Below are positions 56,265 to 63,746 of a DNA stretch of 64,000 bases, piece after piece; position 1 is the stretch's first letter, and the number at the start of each line of letters is the position of its first letter. The notes beneath the pieces are model-generated. The model saw only the letters and a list, made by a program, of their open reading frames with translations. It ran no database searches and was not told the origin of the DNA. The translations under genes and the position numbers were made by a program. The DNA is taken from the NCBI GenBank assembly GCA_003138515.1, contig PLGG01000032.1, positions 1-64,000 of the forward strand, written 5' to 3'. This DNA is from Acidobacteriaceae bacterium. Lineage in GTDB: Bacteria; Acidobacteriota; Terriglobia; Terriglobales; Acidobacteriaceae.

Positions 56265-57353
56265 ATGGGCGGAACAATTTGGGAATCGATGCAGCAGAAG
56301 GGCTACAACCGCAGAGAGTTTCTGCAGTTTTGCACTGCGGCCGCGGCGGCGGCGGGCCTGGCAAAAACCGGCGTGGCGCAGGTCGTTTCGGCCTTCGAAA
56401 AGAAGGAAAAACCGGCCGTGGTGTGGATGCACTTTCAGGAGTGCACCTGTTGCAGCGAGTCGTTTATCCGCTCGTCGCACCCGATTGTGGCGGACGCGCT
56501 GCTGGACGTGCTCTCGCTGAACTACACCGAGACGTTAATGGCCGCGAGCGGCTTCCAGGCGGAGAAGAGCCTGAGCGATACGATCGCGAACAACAAGGGC
56601 AAATACATTGTGCTGGTGGAAGGCGCCGTGCCGACGAAGGACGAGGGCGTCTACTGCATGGTGGGCGGCAAGACGGCGGAGCAGATTCTGCAGTCCGTGG
56701 CCGCAGATGCGGCGGCGATTGTGGCGTGGGGAAGCTGCGCGTCGAACGGATGCGTGCAGGCGGCCAAACCCAATCCGACCGGCGCGACGCCGATCTACAA
56801 ACTGGTGAACAAGCCGGTGATCAATGTGCCCGGTTGTCCACCGATTGCGGACGTGATGATGGGCGTGGTGACGCATCTGCTGGTGCTCGGTCAGATTCCG
56901 GCGCTCGACAGCCAGGGACGGCCCAAGGAGTTCTACGGGCGGCGCGTACATGACACCTGCTACCGCCGGCCGAACTACGACGCCGGACTGTTTGTGGAGG
57001 CGTTCGATGACGAGAACGCGCGCAAGGGATATTGCCTGTACAAGATGGGCTGCAAGGGCCCAGTGACCTACAACGCCTGCTCGGTGACGAGGTGGAACGA
57101 GGGCACGAGCTATCCCATCCAGTCAGGTCACGGGTGCATCGGTTGCAGCGAGGCGGGCTTCTGGGACAACGGCCCGTTCTATCAGCACCTGGCGTCGTTC
57201 CCCGGATTCGGCATCGAAAGCACGGCCGATACCATCGGCACCGCGGTTGGAGTGGCCACGCTGGCCGGAGTCGCGGCGCACGCGGTGGTGACCAACATAC
57301 GCAAGCGCAACGTGATTGCGGAAGTGCACGCTGAAGATCAGAAGGAGAAGTAA
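56265..57353 (+). CDS. hyaA: [NiFe] hydrogenase small subunit, group 1, six-Cys proximal-cluster type
   Basis: A 362-residue Tat-exported subunit (signal NRREFLQFCTAAAAAAGLAK) carrying three iron-sulfur clusters. Proximal-cluster Cys are C60, C62 and C63 (ECTCCSES), with C158, C163 and C191; the extra C62 and C163 are those that distinguish O2-tolerant Hyd-1/MBH enzymes with [4Fe-3S] clusters. Distal cluster: H229, C232, C257, C263. Medial: C272, C291, C294 (HGCIGCSEAGFWD). A C-terminal hydrophobic helix anchors it. Start by the Tat signal; GAGGTAG precedes. First gene of the hydrogenase operon. Confidence 0.95.
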   Translation: MGGTIWESMQQKGYNRREFLQFCTAAAAAAGLAKTGVAQVVSAFEKKEKPAVVWMHFQECTCCSESFIRSSHPIVADALLDVLSLNYTETLMAASGFQAEKSLSDTIANNKGKYIVLVEGAVPTKDEGVYCMVGGKTAEQILQSVAADAAAIVAWGSCASNGCVQAAKPNPTGATPIYKLVNKPVINVPGCPPIADVMMGVVTHLLVLGQIPALDSQGRPKEFYGRRVHDTCYRRPNYDAGLFVEAFDDENARKGYCLYKMGCKGPVTYNACSVTRWNEGTSYPIQSGHGCIGCSEAGFWDNGPFYQHLASFPGFGIESTADTIGTAVGVATLAGVAAHAVVTNIRKRNVIAEVHAEDQKEK

Positions 57354-57358
57354 ACAGT

Positions 57359-59074
57359 ATGGCTACGCGCGTCGTCGTCGATCCTGTCACTCGCATTGAA
57401 GGCCACCTGCGGATTGAAGCGGTGGTGGAGAACGGCGTCATCACCGACGCGTTCAGCGCCGGTACCATGGTTCGCGGCCTGGAAAAGATTCTGATGGGCC
57501 GCGATCCGCGCGATGCCTGGGCCATCACGGAGCGCGTATGCGGCGTGTGCACAACAGTGCACGCGTTGGCCAGCGTGCGATCGGTGGAAGATGCGCTCGG
57601 TGTAAGCGTGCCGCCGACGGCGGAGCTGATCCGCAACATCATGCTGACCACGCAATACGTGCAGGATCACGTGATCCACTTCTATCACTTGCACGCGCTG
57701 GACTGGGTGGACATCGTGAACGCGCTCAAGGCCGATCCCAAAAAGGCCGCGGAGCTGGCGCAGTCGTTTTCGAAGTGGGACAAGAACAATACAGCCTATT
57801 TCACGGCGGTGCAGGACAAGATCAAGGCTTTTGCGGCGAGCGGGCTGGGCATCTTCGCCAACGGCTACTGGGGCCATCCGGCGTACAAGTTGCCGCCGGA
57901 GGTGAACCTGATCGGCGTGGCGCACTATCTGGATGCGCTGGAGTGGCAGAAGGAAATTGTGAAGATTCACGCCGTGTTCGGCGGCAAGAATCCGCACCCG
58001 AATTATCTGGTTGGCGGCGTTCCGTGCTCGATCAACGTGAATGAAGTGGCGGCGATCAACACGGAGCGGCTGAACCTGGTGTCGCGGCTCATCGGGCAGG
58101 CGGATGAGTTCATCAACGAGGTGTACATTCCCGATTTGCTGGCGGTGGCGTCGTTCTACAAGGAATGGGCAAGCTATGGCGGCGGACTGCACAACTATCT
58201 TTGCTACGGCGAATTTCCGACGAGCGGCTACGGTCATCCGGAGTCGTTCAAGTATGCGCGCGGCGCAATACTCAATCGCGATTTGAGCACGGTGTACCCG
58301 GTCAATCCGCGCGACTCGCAGGAGATCAAGGAGTACATTGCGCACTCCTGGTACAAGTACGACGGTGGCGACAGTGTGGGCCTGCACCCGTGGGCCGGCG
58401 AGACAAACATCGCGTACAGCGGACCGAAGCCGCCGTTCGAGAGCCTTGAGGGCTACGACAAATACTCGTTTCTGAAGACACCGCGCTGGAAAGAGAACGC
58501 GATGGAAGTGGGACCGCTGGCAAGGCTGCTGGTTTCGTACGCGTCCGGCCACGCGGATGTGAAGGAAACAGTCGGCATGGTGCTGGGCAAGCTCAACGTG
58601 CCTGTCGACGCGCTGTTCTCGACGCTGGGAAGGACGGCGGCGCGCGGCATCGATGCGGCGCTGGCCATGATCTGGCTGAAGGATTTCTTCGGGCAACTGA
58701 TGGAGCGCGTAAAGATCAACGAAGTGTCGACATTCAACGGCGAGCGGTGGGAACCGAAGACGTGGCCTGCGGATTGCGAAGGAGTGGGCCTGGTGGAAGC
58801 TCCGCGCGGCGCGCTGGCGCACTGGATCAAGATTCACAACGGCGCGATTGAGAATTACCAACTGGTTGTGCCCACAACGTGGAACGGCTCTCCACGCGAC
58901 GGCAAACAGCAACGGTCGTCGTTCGAGGCAGCGCTGATCGGGACGCCGGTCGCGAACCTGGAGCAGCCGGTCGAGATCATCCGCACCATCCATTCCTTTG
59001 ACCCGTGCCTGGCCTGCGCCGTGCATCTCTACGATCCGCAGGGACGGCACCTTCACCAGGTTTCATTCGAGTAA
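57359..59074 (+). CDS. hyaB: [NiFe] hydrogenase large subunit
   Basis: A 571-residue catalytic subunit. N-terminal Ni ligands in RVCGVC (C61, C64) and C-terminal ligands in DPCLACAVH (C550, C553), with E14 in RIEGH near the proton path. The protein ends 15 residues after H556, the peptide normally removed by the maturation protease after nickel insertion. It is paired with the small subunit 5 bp upstream, AAGGAG precedes its ATG, and the stop overlaps the cytochrome b start by 1 bp. Confidence 0.97.
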   Translation: MATRVVVDPVTRIEGHLRIEAVVENGVITDAFSAGTMVRGLEKILMGRDPRDAWAITERVCGVCTTVHALASVRSVEDALGVSVPPTAELIRNIMLTTQYVQDHVIHFYHLHALDWVDIVNALKADPKKAAELAQSFSKWDKNNTAYFTAVQDKIKAFAASGLGIFANGYWGHPAYKLPPEVNLIGVAHYLDALEWQKEIVKIHAVFGGKNPHPNYLVGGVPCSINVNEVAAINTERLNLVSRLIGQADEFINEVYIPDLLAVASFYKEWASYGGGLHNYLCYGEFPTSGYGHPESFKYARGAILNRDLSTVYPVNPRDSQEIKEYIAHSWYKYDGGDSVGLHPWAGETNIAYSGPKPPFESLEGYDKYSFLKTPRWKENAMEVGPLARLLVSYASGHADVKETVGMVLGKLNVPVDALFSTLGRTAARGIDAALAMIWLKDFFGQLMERVKINEVSTFNGERWEPKTWPADCEGVGLVEAPRGALAHWIKIHNGAIENYQLVVPTTWNGSPRDGKQQRSSFEAALIGTPVANLEQPVEIIRTIHSFDPCLACAVHLYDPQGRHLHQVSFE

Positions 59075-59820
59075 TGACGATGAGCACACAGACCACTCGT
59101 GTACGAGATGTTTTCAAGCTGAACGGCGGGGCGCCGGTTGAGTACAGGCGCGTGTACGTGTGGGAACTGCCGGTTCGCGCATACCACTGGATCAACGCCA
59201 TCGCGCTGACGCTGCTGTGCGTGACCGGTTACATGATCGGCCATCCCGTGCGCATCGCGTATGCGTCCGAGGCGTACCAGCAATACTGGTTCGGCTGGGT
59301 GCGGTTCCTGCACTTTGCGTCGGCTTGGGTTTACGTCTTCAATTTTCTGGCGCGGCTCTACTGGGGATTTGTGGGCAACAAATACGCCAAGTGGACCAAT
59401 TTCTTCCCGGTGACGAAGAAGCAGCAGCAGGAGATTGTCGACGTGGTGAAGACGGACGTGCTGCAGGTGAAAATGCACGGAGAGATCTCCACCGGGCACA
59501 ATTCGCTGGCGGCGTTCATCTACTTTCTCACGTTCATCGCATTTTGCATCCAGACCATTACCGGCTTCGCGCTCTACTCTTCGATGAGCTCGTCGTGGGT
59601 GCCGAAGCTCTTCAACTGGGTAGTGCCGCTGCTGGGCGGCGATGCCGGGGTGCGCTTCTGGCATCACACGTTCCTGTGGTTCTTTGTCACGTTCGTCATC
59701 GTTCACATTTATCTGTCGTTCTATCACGACTACATCGAGGGCCGCGGTACGGTAAGCTCGATCATAGGCGGGTGGAAGTTCGATAGGGTGCGCAGTGACG
59801 AAGAATCCAACAAGCCTTAA
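59074..59820 (+). CDS. hyaC: hydrogenase cytochrome b subunit
   Basis: A 248-residue HyaC-type membrane cytochrome b that takes electrons from the small subunit and reduces quinone. Four hydrophobic spans with heme-ligand His candidates: YHWINAIALTLLCVTGYMI, FGWVRFLHFASAWVYVFNFL, TGHNSLAAFIYFLTFIAFCI and FWHHTFLWFFVTFVIVHIYL. Its ATG (59074) shares one base with the hyaB stop; a second ATG at 59080 is possible. The C terminus overlaps the protease gene by 26 bp. Confidence 0.93.
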   Translation: MTMSTQTTRVRDVFKLNGGAPVEYRRVYVWELPVRAYHWINAIALTLLCVTGYMIGHPVRIAYASEAYQQYWFGWVRFLHFASAWVYVFNFLARLYWGFVGNKYAKWTNFFPVTKKQQQEIVDVVKTDVLQVKMHGEISTGHNSLAAFIYFLTFIAFCIQTITGFALYSSMSSSWVPKLFNWVVPLLGGDAGVRFWHHTFLWFFVTFVIVHIYLSFYHDYIEGRGTVSSIIGGWKFDRVRSDEESNKP

Positions 59821-60280
59821 CAAGACGCTGGTGCTGGGCCTCGGCAACCTCATCATGGGCGATGAGGGCGTTGGGGTTCATGTGGTGCGCGCGCTGGAAA
59901 AGCACACATTGCCGGCGGGGGTCGAGTGCCTGGACGGCGGGACCGGCGGCTTCATTCTGCTGGAGCCGCTGGAAAATGCCGACCACATTATTCTGATCGA
60001 CGCCGCCGCGGACGGAAATCCTCCCGGGACGGTGACACGCACAACGCCGCGATTTTCAAAGGACTATCCGCCGACGCTTACGGCTCACGACATCGGGATC
60101 AAGGATCTTCTCGACGCGTTTTACATGCAGGGCGGAACGCGCGAGGTGATTTTGTACGCCATCGCCATCGATCCCAGGCAGTCGATTTCGATGGAACTGT
60201 CCGCGGAATGCGCCAGGGCCGCCGAAACGGCTACATACGAAATTCTTGCGGAGCTGCGTGCAGGCGCTGCCGCCGCGTAA
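59795..60280 (+). CDS. hyaD: hydrogenase maturation protease
   Basis: A 161-residue HyaD/HybD-type endopeptidase removing the C-terminal peptide of the large subunit. Conserved GLGNLIMGDEGVGVHVVRAL (Asp/Glu that senses nickel), CLDGGTGGFILL and the His in TAHDIGIKDLL. The start is GTG 59795 inside hyaC; the overlap implies coupled translation. No hypABCDEF genes are seen, so Ni/Fe-CN assembly must come from elsewhere in the genome. Confidence 0.93.
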   Translation: MTKNPTSLNKTLVLGLGNLIMGDEGVGVHVVRALEKHTLPAGVECLDGGTGGFILLEPLENADHIILIDAAADGNPPGTVTRTTPRFSKDYPPTLTAHDIGIKDLLDAFYMQGGTREVILYAIAIDPRQSISMELSAECARAAETATYEILAELRAGAAAA

Positions 60281-60338
60281 GTCCTGTCAATCGGCCACTT
60301 TTCCGGCGGCTGGGATTGCAAGTCGGACCAAATCAGTC

Positions 60339-60344
60339 TAATAT
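60339..60344 (+). promoter_or_regulatory. -10 box TAATAT before the poly-Cys leader ORF
   Basis: TAATAT, 7 nt (TCTGACT), then ATG 60352. TATTCT at 60342-60347 overlaps it with a 4-nt gap. Confidence 0.45.
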
Positions 60345-60351
60345 TCTGACT

Positions 60352-60405
60352 ATGGAAGCTATGGCCTGTTGTCGCTCGTGTATGCTGCCCGCGCGGCTAG
60401 GGTGA
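60352..60405 (+). CDS. poly-cysteine leader peptide (17 aa) before the sulfite reductase
   Basis: The ORF reads MEAMACCRSCMLPARLG and stop. Three of five consecutive codons (6, 7 and 10, with one Arg and one Ser between) are Cys, a strong concentration for so short a peptide. There is no Shine-Dalgarno, and TAATAT 7 nt upstream makes a leaderless start plausible. Downstream is a hairpin at 60447-60481 and then the sulfite reductase gene. In mycobacteria, leaderless poly-Cys short ORFs act as cysteine-responsive attenuators of sulfur operons; this one has the same parts. No family match beyond that analogy. Confidence 0.6.
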   Translation: MEAMACCRSCMLPARLG

Positions 60406-60446
60406 CCCGGGTCTGAACTTCCGAATAAAAGTCCACGGTTTCCCCG

Positions 60447-60485
60447 ATGCCCGCGTTTGAGCCAAAAGCTCTCGCGGGCATTTCA
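60447..60485 (+). terminator. attenuator-like hairpin between the poly-Cys ORF and the reductase gene
   Basis: ATGCCCGCG (60447-60455) pairs with CGCGGGCAT (60473-60481); an inner stem GAGC/GCTC closes a CAAAA loop. TTCATT follows, a weak U-tract. A further 10-bp palindrome GACCCGGGTC (60404-60413) begins in the leader ORF stop codon and could form a competing structure. Confidence 0.6.
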
Positions 60486-60514
60486 TTCGAGCGAAACGAA
60501 AGAGAAGCGAGAAG

Positions 60515-62215
60515 ATGAGCGAAACACCGGCGCCGAAAGAAACCAAAGCTCAGAAGTCAGAGCGTCTAAAGCGTGAAAAGAATCCATGGGCAGTTTTCGA
60601 CGAGGTCCGTGCGTTTGCGCGCGCGGGCCGCGACAGTGTGCTGCCCGAGTGGGCCTCCTTCTATTTCAAATGGTGGGGCGTGTATACGCAGGGCGATGGC
60701 GTCGGCGCGACCGGGGGCAAGGGCGGAGAAGGCCTGGCCACCGAATGGTTCATGATGCGGATCGGCATTCCTAACGGGATTGTTTCCGCGAGCCAACTGC
60801 GAGCCATCGGCGAAATTACGCGGAAACAGGCGCGCGACCTGGCCGACATTACGGTTCGCCAGAACATCCAGCTTCACTGGTTGACTATCGAGTCGCTGCC
60901 CGAGGTGGTGGACGCGCTGGACGCCATCGGCCTCTCGCCAAAAGGCGCTTGCGGCGACGTGGTGCGCAACGTGACGGGCTGTCCGCTGGCCGGCATCGCA
61001 GCCGACGAGCTGATCGACGCTTCGCCCATCGCGCGCGGAATCGCGCACGAGTTGTCGGCTAACAACGAATTCTTCAACCTGCCGCGCAAGTTCAAGATTT
61101 GCGCAACCGGCTGCCCGTCTTGGTGCACATATCCGGAGATCAACGACATCGGCCTCACGCCGGCGGTGCGCGACGGCGAAGTTGGCTACTCGCTGCGCGT
61201 GGGGGGAGGGCTTTCGAACGAGCCGCACCTGGCTGTGAAGCTCGATGCATTTGTTCGGCCGGATCAGGCGATCCGCGTGGCGCGCGGCGTGGCGGAGATC
61301 TTTCGCGAGCAGCAGGGATTGCGCGAAAGTCGGGACAGGGCTCGACTCAAGTATTTGTTCATGCGCGAAGGCTGGACGGCGGAGCGCTTTCTTGACGAAC
61401 TGAACGCGAAGATCGGATTCAAGCTCGACCCGGCAGCGCAAGAGCAGGTTCCCGACGATGTTCTTCGCGACCACGTGGGCATTCATCCGCAGCGGCAGCC
61501 GGGTTTGGCGTATGTGGGAGCATCCGTGTTGCGCGGCCGTTTGACCGGCGATCAGCTCGTGGCGACGGCGGAATTGGCGGAGCGGTTTGGAAGCGGCGCT
61601 CTGCGCCTCACGGTCTCGCAGAACCTGGTGATCATCGATGTGCCCCAGGCGAAGACCGGCGAACTGGCGCGGGAGCTTGGGCAGATCGGGCTGCATGTGG
61701 AAGGCTCGATGTTCTGGCGCGGCGCTGTTGCCTGCACGGGAACGGAGTTCTGCAAGCTGGCGATTTCCGAGACCAAGGGCTTTACGCGATGGCTCGTCGA
61801 CGAGATGGAAGAGCGGCTGCCGCAGTTCGACCAGCAACTGAAGCTGCACGTGACCGGCTGCCCGAATAGTTGCGGCCAGCATTGGATTGCGGACATCGGC
61901 CTTGAAGGCAAGAAGATCAAGCACGAAGGCAAGCTGACGGACGCTTTTTACTTCTGCCTGGGCGGAGGAGTGGGCCAGCACGCCGGGATTTCGCGGCCGG
62001 TAGGTTATCGCTGCCCTGCGCCGCTAGTGCCTGAGGCGATCGAGCGGCTGTTGCGCCAGTATCTGGCGGGGCGCACGACGGAAGAAAATCTGCGCGCATG
62101 GTTTGCGCGTCACTCGAACGACGAATTACGCGCGCATCTGGCCGGGGAAGTTTTAGAGGCTGTGGAACGTGATCTTCCGGCGGGGCCTGTGCCGCATGCC
62201 GTGGCGGAGGGATGA
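60515..62215 (+). CDS. siroheme-dependent sulfite/nitrite reductase (ferredoxin type)
   Basis: A 566-residue assimilatory reductase with siroheme and a [4Fe-4S] cluster. The cluster/siroheme Cys are C407 and C413 (ACTGTEFC) and C449 and C453 (TGCPNSC). N-terminal half repeats (VRQNIQLHWLTIESLPEVVD, RNVTGCPLAGIAADELIDAS) fit the two-fold SiR/NiR fold. Whether sulfite or nitrite is the main substrate cannot be decided from motifs; the poly-Cys leader and adjacent siroheme synthase favour sulfite. The start at 60515 follows AGAGAAGCGAGAAG. Confidence 0.93.
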   Translation: MSETPAPKETKAQKSERLKREKNPWAVFDEVRAFARAGRDSVLPEWASFYFKWWGVYTQGDGVGATGGKGGEGLATEWFMMRIGIPNGIVSASQLRAIGEITRKQARDLADITVRQNIQLHWLTIESLPEVVDALDAIGLSPKGACGDVVRNVTGCPLAGIAADELIDASPIARGIAHELSANNEFFNLPRKFKICATGCPSWCTYPEINDIGLTPAVRDGEVGYSLRVGGGLSNEPHLAVKLDAFVRPDQAIRVARGVAEIFREQQGLRESRDRARLKYLFMREGWTAERFLDELNAKIGFKLDPAAQEQVPDDVLRDHVGIHPQRQPGLAYVGASVLRGRLTGDQLVATAELAERFGSGALRLTVSQNLVIIDVPQAKTGELARELGQIGLHVEGSMFWRGAVACTGTEFCKLAISETKGFTRWLVDEMEERLPQFDQQLKLHVTGCPNSCGQHWIADIGLEGKKIKHEGKLTDAFYFCLGGGVGQHAGISRPVGYRCPAPLVPEAIERLLRQYLAGRTTEENLRAWFARHSNDELRAHLAGEVLEAVERDLPAGPVPHAVAEG

Positions 62216-62354: not shown

Positions 62355-63746
62355 ATGAGTTTGTTGCCAATATTTCTGAAGCTTGAAGGGCGGCAGGGCC
62401 TGCTGGTTGGAGCGGGGACTGTGGCGCTCGAAAAGATCGGTTCGCTGCTCAAGACGGGCCTGCGGCTGCGAGTGGTTGCGCCCGAAGCGCGGGCGGAAGT
62501 GCGGGAACTTGCCGCCGAAGGGAAGCTCGAGTGGGTGCAGCGGGAGTTCGAGGCTGGGGACCTGGACGGCAACTTCATCGTGATTGCCGCGACCGACGTG
62601 CCGGAGGTAAATGCGGCGGTCTATCGCGAGGCCGTCGCGCGCGGGATTCCGTGCAACAGTGTCGACGATATTCCCAACTGCGACTTTTTCTTTGGCTCGG
62701 TAGTGAGCCGCGGCGATTTGCAGATTGCGATTTCGACGGCAGGCGAGAGTCCGGCTTTGGCGCAGCGGCTGCGGCGAGAGATTGACGAGCAACTGCCGCG
62801 GGATTTGGGGCCATGGCTTGCAAAGCTCGGTGAATTGAGGCGCGAAGTTCTGGCAACGCAGCCGCGCAGCGAAGAACGAAGGCTGCTGCTGCACGAGCTG
62901 GCGCAAAGGCAGGTCTGCGATTCGGCTTTGTGCGCGACGAAACAGTTGGCGCGAACGGGCAGGGAAGCGGCGCGCGCGGTTGCAGGCAGCGTTTACCTGG
63001 TTGGAGCCGGTCCTGGCGATCCGGAATTGCTGACGCTGAAGGCGGTGCGGGTGATCGAGAGCGCGGATGTGATTCTGCACGACGATCTGGTGCCGCAGTC
63101 GATTCTCGATTTGGCCAGGTCCGGAGATGAATCCGGCGCTGAAGTCGTGAATGTGGGCAAGCGATGCGGCGCAAAGAACATCACGCAAGAAGAGATCAAC
63201 ACACTGATGATCGACCACGCGCGGGCGCAGCGCAGCGTCGTGCGGCTGAAGAGCGGAGATCCGCTGCTGTTCGGCCGAGCTGCCGAGGAGCTGGCTGCTC
63301 TGGCCGAGGCCGGCGTGCCGTTCGAAATTGTGCCTGGCGTGTCGGCTGCGTTTGCGGCGGCGGCTGCAATTGGCCGGTCGCTGACCGATCGCGATTGGGC
63401 CTCGCACGTGATTCTCACTACCGGGCATCATGCGCAATCGCACAACCGCGAGGCGCTGCCTGCTGTTGAGGCGGGCACGCGCGTGGTCTACATGCCGGGC
63501 CGCGACCTGGGATTGCTTGCATCCGAATGGCTGGATGAAGGCCTGCCAGCCGATCTGCCGTGCGCTGTGGTTTCGCGAGCGGCGCAGCCGGACCAGCGGG
63601 TGATGCATACAACACTTGGGGGGTTAGGCGCGTTGGGCGAAGTCGAACCCGCTGCCGCGCCAAGTTTGTTGATCGCCGGATGGGCAGTGCGGGAACGCAC
63701 GACGGCCCGGGAAATGCTCGAGGACGCCGGCGCCCTGGCCGACTGA
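62355..63746 (+). CDS. cysG: bifunctional siroheme synthase (precorrin-2 dehydrogenase/ferrochelatase + SAM uroporphyrinogen-III methyltransferase)
   Basis: A 463-residue CysG-like fusion. N-terminal NAD-dependent dehydrogenase/chelatase part (LLVGAGTVALEKIGSLLKTG, VNAAVYREAVARGIPCNSVD, GDLQIAISTAGESPALAQRL) and C-terminal SUMT from about residue 213 (VYLVGAGPGDPELLTLKAVR, VRLKSGDPLLFGRAAEEL, PGVSAAFAAAAAIGRSLT, VYMPGRDLG). Together these give siroheme from uroporphyrinogen III, the cofactor of the reductase encoded just upstream. The ATG is at 62355, directly after a heptad array. Confidence 0.95.
   Translation: MSLLPIFLKLEGRQGLLVGAGTVALEKIGSLLKTGLRLRVVAPEARAEVRELAAEGKLEWVQREFEAGDLDGNFIVIAATDVPEVNAAVYREAVARGIPCNSVDDIPNCDFFFGSVVSRGDLQIAISTAGESPALAQRLRREIDEQLPRDLGPWLAKLGELRREVLATQPRSEERRLLLHELAQRQVCDSALCATKQLARTGREAARAVAGSVYLVGAGPGDPELLTLKAVRVIESADVILHDDLVPQSILDLARSGDESGAEVVNVGKRCGAKNITQEEINTLMIDHARAQRSVVRLKSGDPLLFGRAAEELAALAEAGVPFEIVPGVSAAFAAAAAIGRSLTDRDWASHVILTTGHHAQSHNREALPAVEAGTRVVYMPGRDLGLLASEWLDEGLPADLPCAVVSRAAQPDQRVMHTTLGGLGALGEVEPAAAPSLLIAGWAVRERTTAREMLEDAGALAD

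Follow-up and report, generated by a model that had tools for sequence, protein, structure and literature searches.

Attenuators of the trp/his type combine regulatory leader codons, a stop codon inside region 2, and mutually exclusive 1:2, 2:3, and 3:4 helices. Cysteine attenuation is already a known kind of control, since leaders from mycobacteria and Rhodobacterales have been described. Leaderless polycysteine short ORFs of mycobacteria are reported to act at the level of translation (Canestrari et al. 2020; Shell et al. 2015 PMC4633059), and the mycobacterial polycysteine leaders of 2005 had no conserved terminators and carried their Cys codons near the stop codon (Seliverstov et al. 2005 PMC1262725). 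In Rhodobacterales, the uORFC-8-2 motif before cysS is described as a predicted Cys-codon leader with an intrinsic terminator that would be read through when Cys-tRNA is low (PMC8632094). For the Acidobacteria, a 2010 survey left almost all predicted attenuators without an assigned function.

Here we analyzed a window of 64,000 nucleotides from the genome of a soil member of the Acidobacteriaceae (contig PLGG01000032.1), in which a short ORF with three Cys codons precedes a siroheme-dependent reductase gene. The original prediction had named this a candidate cysteine-responsive attenuator, and every part that it listed was found in place: the 17-codon ORF with Cys at codons 6, 7, and 10, the TAATAT box 7 nt upstream, the palindrome at the stop codon, the hairpin, and the reductase ATG at 60515. 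The layout, with a newly added -35-like element, is as follows.

60316-60321, + strand: -35-like promoter element TTGCAA, read from the sequence (newly added part)
60339-60344, + strand: TAATAT box, with a 17-nt spacer from TTGCAA and 7 nt before the short-ORF ATG
60351/60352, + strand: predicted transcription start, equal to the A of the short-ORF ATG
60352-60405, + strand: leader-peptide ORF MEAMACCRSCMLPARLG, predicted to be leaderless; ATG at 60352, 17 codons, stop TGA at 60403-60405
60367-60381, + strand: region 1, with Cys codons 6 (60367-60369), 7 (60370-60372), and 10 (60379-60381), all TGT
60390-60414, + strand: region 2, putative 5' half of the antiterminator, covering the short-ORF end and stop codon (from folds and covariation)
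60404-60413: palindrome GACCCGGGTC at the short-ORF stop codon
60430-60455, + strand: region 3, putative 3' half of the antiterminator (from folds and covariation)
60450-60455, + strand: CCCGCG, the end of region 3, doubling as 5' arm of the terminator
60447-60481, + strand: terminator-like hairpin ATGCCCGCG / CGCGGGCAT, with a 9-bp outer stem and an inner GAGC/GCTC
directly after the hairpin, + strand: tail TTCATTCG, T-poor in the window copy
60515-62215, + strand: siroheme nitrite/sulfite reductase (NIR_SIR, NirA-like), the first gene under the predicted control
62355-63746, + strand: siroheme synthase CysG (NF007922 over its cut-off, NCBIfam), presumed second gene of the operon

The predicted transcription start was placed at 60351/60352 because TTGCAA stands 17 nt upstream of TAATAT. 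A generic promoter and terminator scan called neither element in the window leader. The spacer of the promoter (60325-60339) holds an imperfect GGACC-N5-(A/G)GTC palindrome, seen by eye and also in the closest relatives, which is perhaps a repressor site on top of the attenuator. Further upstream, 56265-60280 contains apparent [NiFe]-hydrogenase genes, named from reading (small and large subunits, cytochrome b, and a maturation protease). The reductase had PF01077 and PF03460 domains (Pfam), and its top NCBIfam matches were ferredoxin-nitrite reductase and NirA, both under their equivalog cut-offs. Because of the CysG neighbor and the cysteine leader, we read it as a putative assimilatory sulfite, rather than nitrite, reductase.

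A cysteine-sensing attenuator appears by far the best reading of this element, and we put the probability that it is a ribosome-mediated transcription attenuator sensing cysteinyl-tRNA at about 0.87. Its predicted layout is that of a trp-type attenuator, with a leader ORF, a conserved terminator, and a mutually exclusive antiterminator. Leader codons, a stop codon within region 2, and exclusive helices are common to the trp/his type and the window element, whereas the leaderless start, the use of cysteine, the scatter over many operons, and the targeting of a tRNA gene set it apart. The likeness to the mycobacterial leaders is one of layout and consists of a leaderless Cys-rich short ORF before sulfur or cysteine genes and a proposed sensing of cysteine via ribosome speed. 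The mycobacterial leaders are reported to control translation with no conserved terminator, whereas a terminator/antiterminator pair is predicted here; the Cys codons lie mid-ORF (6, 7, and 10 of 17) rather than near the stop, and the phyla differ. The uORFC-8-2 motif is similar in having a Cys-codon leader with a terminator. It differs in preceding a cysteinyl-tRNA synthetase gene in Alphaproteobacteria, with tandem Cys codons usually at 14-15 and two stems, in contrast to the reductase/sulfur assimilation and tRNA-Cys genes, the Acidobacteriaceae hosts, the Cys codons at 6-7, and the apparently leaderless start in the window.

We scored reductase upstreams as Cys-rich when a short ORF with at least three Cys in six codons lay within 320 nt. 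A first sample took the 63 closest same-genus reductase orthologues (L001-L063), 62 of them uncut by a contig end, and omitted a partial match in G028 and weaker matches. Cys-rich short ORFs were present in 58/62 upstreams, compared with 1.55 expected from dinucleotide shuffles and 5 on the reverse strand; the other four had CC only (L022 and L039) or a broken frame (L045 and L061). The second sample, overlapping the first, drew on 80 named loci, 78 of which had an upstream of 250 nt or more, and the closest reductases among the named records were mostly from Acidobacteriaceae MAGs. Here 73/78 upstreams had such an ORF, whereas shuffles predicted 2.15 and the reverse strand gave 4. Cultivable relatives with the element include Terracidiphilus gabretensis S55 (L239) and Occallatibacter savannae (L249). 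The five failures comprised two reductases behind a cysH-like gene (L272, L273), two loci with fewer or scattered Cys codons (L267, L270), and one with no leader visible (L276). A lack of conserved Cys codons or hairpin in relatives would have spoken against the original prediction; both were conserved there, and the prediction survived. None of three same-genus reductase paralogues (L067-L069, 53-57% identical) had a Cys-rich leader. Reductases from further families within the order and class were preceded by Cys-run leaders at 10/10 loci examined, a set outside which G074 and G083 lie. Terminators at these loci were textbook in L064, L065, and L066 and visible in L070 and L196-L198, with no clear terminator on reading at L199, L200, and L201. 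A 77%-identical reductase was also seen in a record titled Opitutia bacterium fen_1432 (L234), and our guess is that an Acidobacteriaceae contig was misassigned here, a transfer being less likely.

The maturation-protease ORF stops at 60280, 35 nt ahead of the leader promoter, a position from which the hairpin might terminate the hydrogenase genes, with the short ORF an accident. The frequency of Cys-rich leaders given above (58/62 versus 1.55 expected) makes this explanation extremely improbable, and we rejected it because the leader, its Cys codons, and the hairpin were kept in orthologues with differing upstream sequence.

Codon counts and alignments were made on 58 of the 63 leaders, those fitting a start-(12 to 15 nt)-(TGY or CGC)-TGY pattern; L034, L041, L045, L061, and L062 were left out. 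Their consensus was M-x4-CC-R-x-C, with residues 2-5 variable. Cys7 was found in 58/58, a count partly built in because the leaders were picked by TGY there, as was Cys or Arg at codon 6 likewise. Codon 6 was Cys in 55/58 leaders (Arg in three), and Cys10 was present in 51/58; the selection pattern required neither this preference for Cys at codon 6 nor Cys10. Two further features outside the pattern were universal, namely ATG, never GTG or TTG, as the start codon (58/58) and the exact 12-nt spacing (58/58). The frame closed at codon 13-24 in all 58 leaders and at codon 18 in 44/58.

The CCR at codons 6-8 was near-fixed in these selected leaders (Arg8 in 53/58, partly set by the selection pattern), as might be seen if the Cys-rich peptide itself acted, as a metal- or redox-sensing or an arrest peptide, instead of Cys-tRNA being sensed at the level of codons. 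However, the conservation of the fixed CGC codon could stem from its additional ability to pair with region 2. What recurs among the leaders is Cys as such, with runs of CCACCC, CCCNCCC, CMCCCQGC, and others elsewhere, and many of the downstream genes described below are Cys supply genes or tRNA-Cys. We consider action by the peptide very unlikely.

The leaderless start of the short ORF that had originally been proposed is supported, as judged by promoter geometry only: every leader (58/58) had TTG at -35 to -37 relative to the short ORF, and TANNNT stood 6-8 nt before the ATG in 47/58, being missing at the right spacing in the other 11/58.

Folded as a single sequence, the window leader was unexceptional (z -1.62; 12/200 shuffles as good), and we therefore used comparative evidence. 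The stretch folded in each leader began at codon 11 and ended with the 5' arm of the hairpin, and the expectation was obtained by shuffling the upstream part. At least four of the six CCCGCG bases paired with the short-ORF end in 55/58 leaders, compared with 14.3 expected; three of the 58 lacked the arm pairing in the MFE fold. The antiterminator helix joins CGCG.GCA..GG.GACCTGGGT with ATCCA.GGTT.CC...TGC.CGCG. Across 36 aligned leaders, 85% of its cells were paired versus no more than 49% when partners were slid, both sides had changed in 16 cells versus 5.9 in shuffles (0/500 as high), and the covariation score was reached by 0/500 shuffles. Antiterminator fold energies were just slightly under those of shuffles (mean z -0.56, with 18/58 below -1). 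In the terminator, five stem pairs were invariant, a sixth was kept in 36/36 leaders (one as G-U), and the inner stem had double changes; such invariance is expected because these bases must pair in two ways. Pairing of region 1 with region 2 (GTCGC..CTGT with ACAGGTGAC) was kept in 91% of cells, and its covariation was weak (score met by 74/500 shuffles), which is what fixed codons would lead one to expect. The short-ORF stop codon sits within region 2. These features support the proposal of a cysteine-responsive attenuator by way of a conserved Cys leader ORF and exclusive helices.

Behind the hairpin, the tail was at least 50% T in 55/58 leaders, with a T fraction of 0.65 versus 0.26 in the background. 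The window copy falls under 50%, with 5 T of 12, and this poor T-tract is one of two points in favor of control in the mycobacterial style, in which a stalled ribosome would free a sequestered reductase RBS and the hairpin would be no terminator. The other is that the leaderless Cys-rich leader ORFs of mycobacteria are reported to act on translation. The T-rich tails of the 55 leaders and near-perfect terminators at some loci of other families argue against translation attenuation, as does the alternative helix, which rivals the 5' arm of the hairpin and not the start codon ~30 nt downstream. The same design also stands before tRNA genes, which are untranslated. We regard translation attenuation as unlikely, and the level of control is likely transcription. 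Of the mycobacterial model invoked in the original prediction, the leaderless Cys-rich short ORF stood, whereas translation attenuation gave way to an anatomy that points to a terminator/antiterminator switch.

As a transcription attenuator, the element would work as follows, with translation, termination, and the cysteine response as predicted steps added to the Cys-codon conservation, promoter-ATG geometry, exclusive helices, and sulfur-gene context observed. RNA polymerase would begin at the A of the short-ORF ATG, and a 70S ribosome would load the leaderless end. With ample Cys-tRNA, the ribosome would reach the stop codon and region 2 would be unable to pair, because that stop codon lies inside it. 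With region 2 masked, CCCGCG would pair with CGCGGG and transcription would end ahead of the reductase, as the anatomy suggests. When Cys-tRNA is scarce, the ribosome would stall at the TGT codons, and the free region 2 would pair with region 3, including CCCGCG; no terminator would then form, and the reductase and cysG would be transcribed. If no ribosome loads, region 1 could pair with region 2, giving termination by default.

We searched for further leaders with R1, a covariance model of the same-genus reductase leaders, which matched 19/349 class genomes at E ≤ 0.01. R1 is insensitive; far more species proved to have leaders in the protein-based sample. Apart from same-genus reductases, its loci L072 and L083-L096 were read singly, and gene names were taken from Pfam/NCBIfam on one member each and from BLAST to that member for the others. 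Leaders stood before reductases of other genera (L083, L086), cysD (L092-L094), YeiH-type permease genes (L088, L091), cysH (L084, with the Cys-rich frame MHCVCHWSCCCPAASRASRSGSM), a Met8-type siroheme enzyme named by reading (L087), and TonB/OMP-type receptors (L085, L090, L095, L096); the match at L089 had no leader on reading. Several of these matches were weak (E about 0.001-0.007). The four TonB/OMP-type receptors were seen to carry a carboxypeptidase-like regulatory domain, and uptake of a sulfur compound is a possible role for them.

The window's own genome (G000) contained a weak second R1 match (E 0.5) at L072:1483-1783 (G000:C88), and ~60 nt behind it ARAGORN called a tRNA-Cys(GCA) that scored 65.6 bits with the Rfam tRNA model. 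The order at this locus was Cys leader, terminator, tRNA-Cys(GCA), small ORF, and YeiH-type permease gene, the last 89% identical to that of L128. The leader is MKSFAPMNAETCCRAVIRCAHTHSGVRKWLG; ATTCTGGCG in its ORF is complementary to CGCCAGAAT of the terminator arm, and the fold agrees. At least three tRNA-Cys genes are present in this genome: a first next to tRNA-Gly, a second that follows a rhodanese-like gene, and a third behind the attenuator. The copy that follows the rhodanese-like gene, a gene identified by eye, is of the extra type (L185:1278-1353, G000:C61). No Cys leader was noticed in the 500 nt examined at L185, and L106 was similar.

With the attenuator-linked tRNA-Cys as query against 69 genus genomes, extra copies of its type were found in many. 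A Cys-rich leader and strong terminator lay upstream of tRNA-Cys, within ~430 nt, at 17 of the 30 loci read; among these 30, L119 was cut by a contig end. L106 was discounted as an 18th case, its frame being a chance one in a rhodanese-like gene. At L099, L107, and L124, attenuated genes came first and tRNA-Cys lay at a greater distance; at L099 these genes are the reductase and cysG of the G041 operon, and tRNA-Cys follows cysG by 70 nt. The typical peptide of the tRNA leaders is M-x-x-F-x-TPA-x-C-x-CCCQGC-x-x-RACSLG. A Shine-Dalgarno-like AAAGGA is present in leaders of the common type, which are not leaderless; the leaderless type is represented by L097 and L098. In most folds an antiterminator competes with the terminator arm. 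In 15 aligned tRNA leaders, 80% of cells were paired versus a maximum of 51% when slid; the covariation score was met by 8/500 shuffles and the number of double-changed pairs by 86/500.

A second model, R2, was built from the tRNA-Cys leaders with the tRNA excluded. R2 matched 43/80 genus genomes (E ≤ 0.001) and 116/349 class genomes (E ≤ 0.01). At E ≤ 1e-5 it matched 13/297 phylum genomes, all within the window's own family, a count that says little on other Cys leaders because R2 is family-specific. We read 30 genus loci and 28 new class loci (L157-L184), 27 of the latter from other genera; L180 was an R2 match with no leader. A tRNA-Cys on the same strand and at most 1.1 kb downstream was found at 24/30 genus loci, 15 of these 24 being R2 training loci chosen for their tRNA, and at 46/58 of all loci (L127-L184). 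Outside training, tRNA-Cys was present at 9/15 genus loci and at 22/28 class loci, none of which were in training, and thus at 31/43 independent loci. Twenty of the 22 class cases lay behind a 1-Cys peroxiredoxin gene, so that the order in sister genera is leader, 1-Cys peroxiredoxin, tRNA-Cys. No tRNA other than tRNA-Cys was found downstream of the R2 loci read. At ~3 tRNA-Cys per genome, we estimate the chance of a tRNA-Cys per locus at well below 1 in 1000.

The remaining 12/43 independent loci had a solute-binding protein (L144), cysD (L172, L173), cysK (L175), a TauE-type permease (L178), a TIM-barrel protein (L146, L151, L153, L156), or a peroxiredoxin (L166) behind the match, or were a contig end (L132) or the non-leader L180. 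The TIM-barrel protein (PF01261) occurred behind Cys leaders at L146, L149, L151, L153, and L156; a sulfonate-binding assignment was dropped after Pfam on L146, to which the other four are 69-75% identical. At L149 a tRNA-Cys was seen between the leader and the TIM-barrel gene, and at L146 a tRNA-Cys-like stretch, uncalled by ARAGORN, behind the leader.

We judge it reasonably probable that Acidobacteriaceae have a cysteine regulon of scattered Cys-codon transcription attenuators whose targets include tRNA-Cys(GCA), so that antitermination upon a shortage of charged tRNA-Cys would make more of the tRNA. The tRNA-Cys would be under a leader alone (leader, terminator, tRNA-Cys) or in an operon with a YeiH-type permease, a solute-binding protein, a peroxiredoxin, or reductase-cysG. 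This branch is the most surprising part, and position, peptide, and predicted RNA structure support it. The far wider use of the device suggested in the original prediction is supported for Acidobacteriaceae and certain related families, with tRNA-Cys genes as an additional class of target.

Rfam gave no match up to E=1 for 60250-60600. A named leader-peptide family was rejected, as neither the padded window peptide nor one leader peptide of the tRNA type had a match in NCBIfam. In the open-access literature, with subscription papers mostly outside the search, we recognized no report of Cys attenuators in Acidobacteria or of a tRNA gene controlled by a leader that contains the codons it reads. 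No other case in which a cysteine-codon leader precedes its cognate tRNA is known to us. To our knowledge, what is new is the phylum, the combination of a terminator-type mechanism and a leaderless start, the range of genes targeted, and the inclusion of tRNA-Cys among them.

In Acidobacteriaceae, sulfite reduction, sulfate activation, sulfur transport, a peroxiredoxin, and tRNA-Cys supply appear to be tied together by a single type of sensor. The Cys leaders may also serve as labels that mark TonB-type receptors, YeiH-type permeases, and the TIM-barrel protein as candidates for a role in sulfur or cysteine metabolism. Should the link to tRNA-Cys hold, tRNA abundance would be under direct feedback from the tRNA's own codons, and the matching of the tRNA pool to demand in bacteria would become testable.
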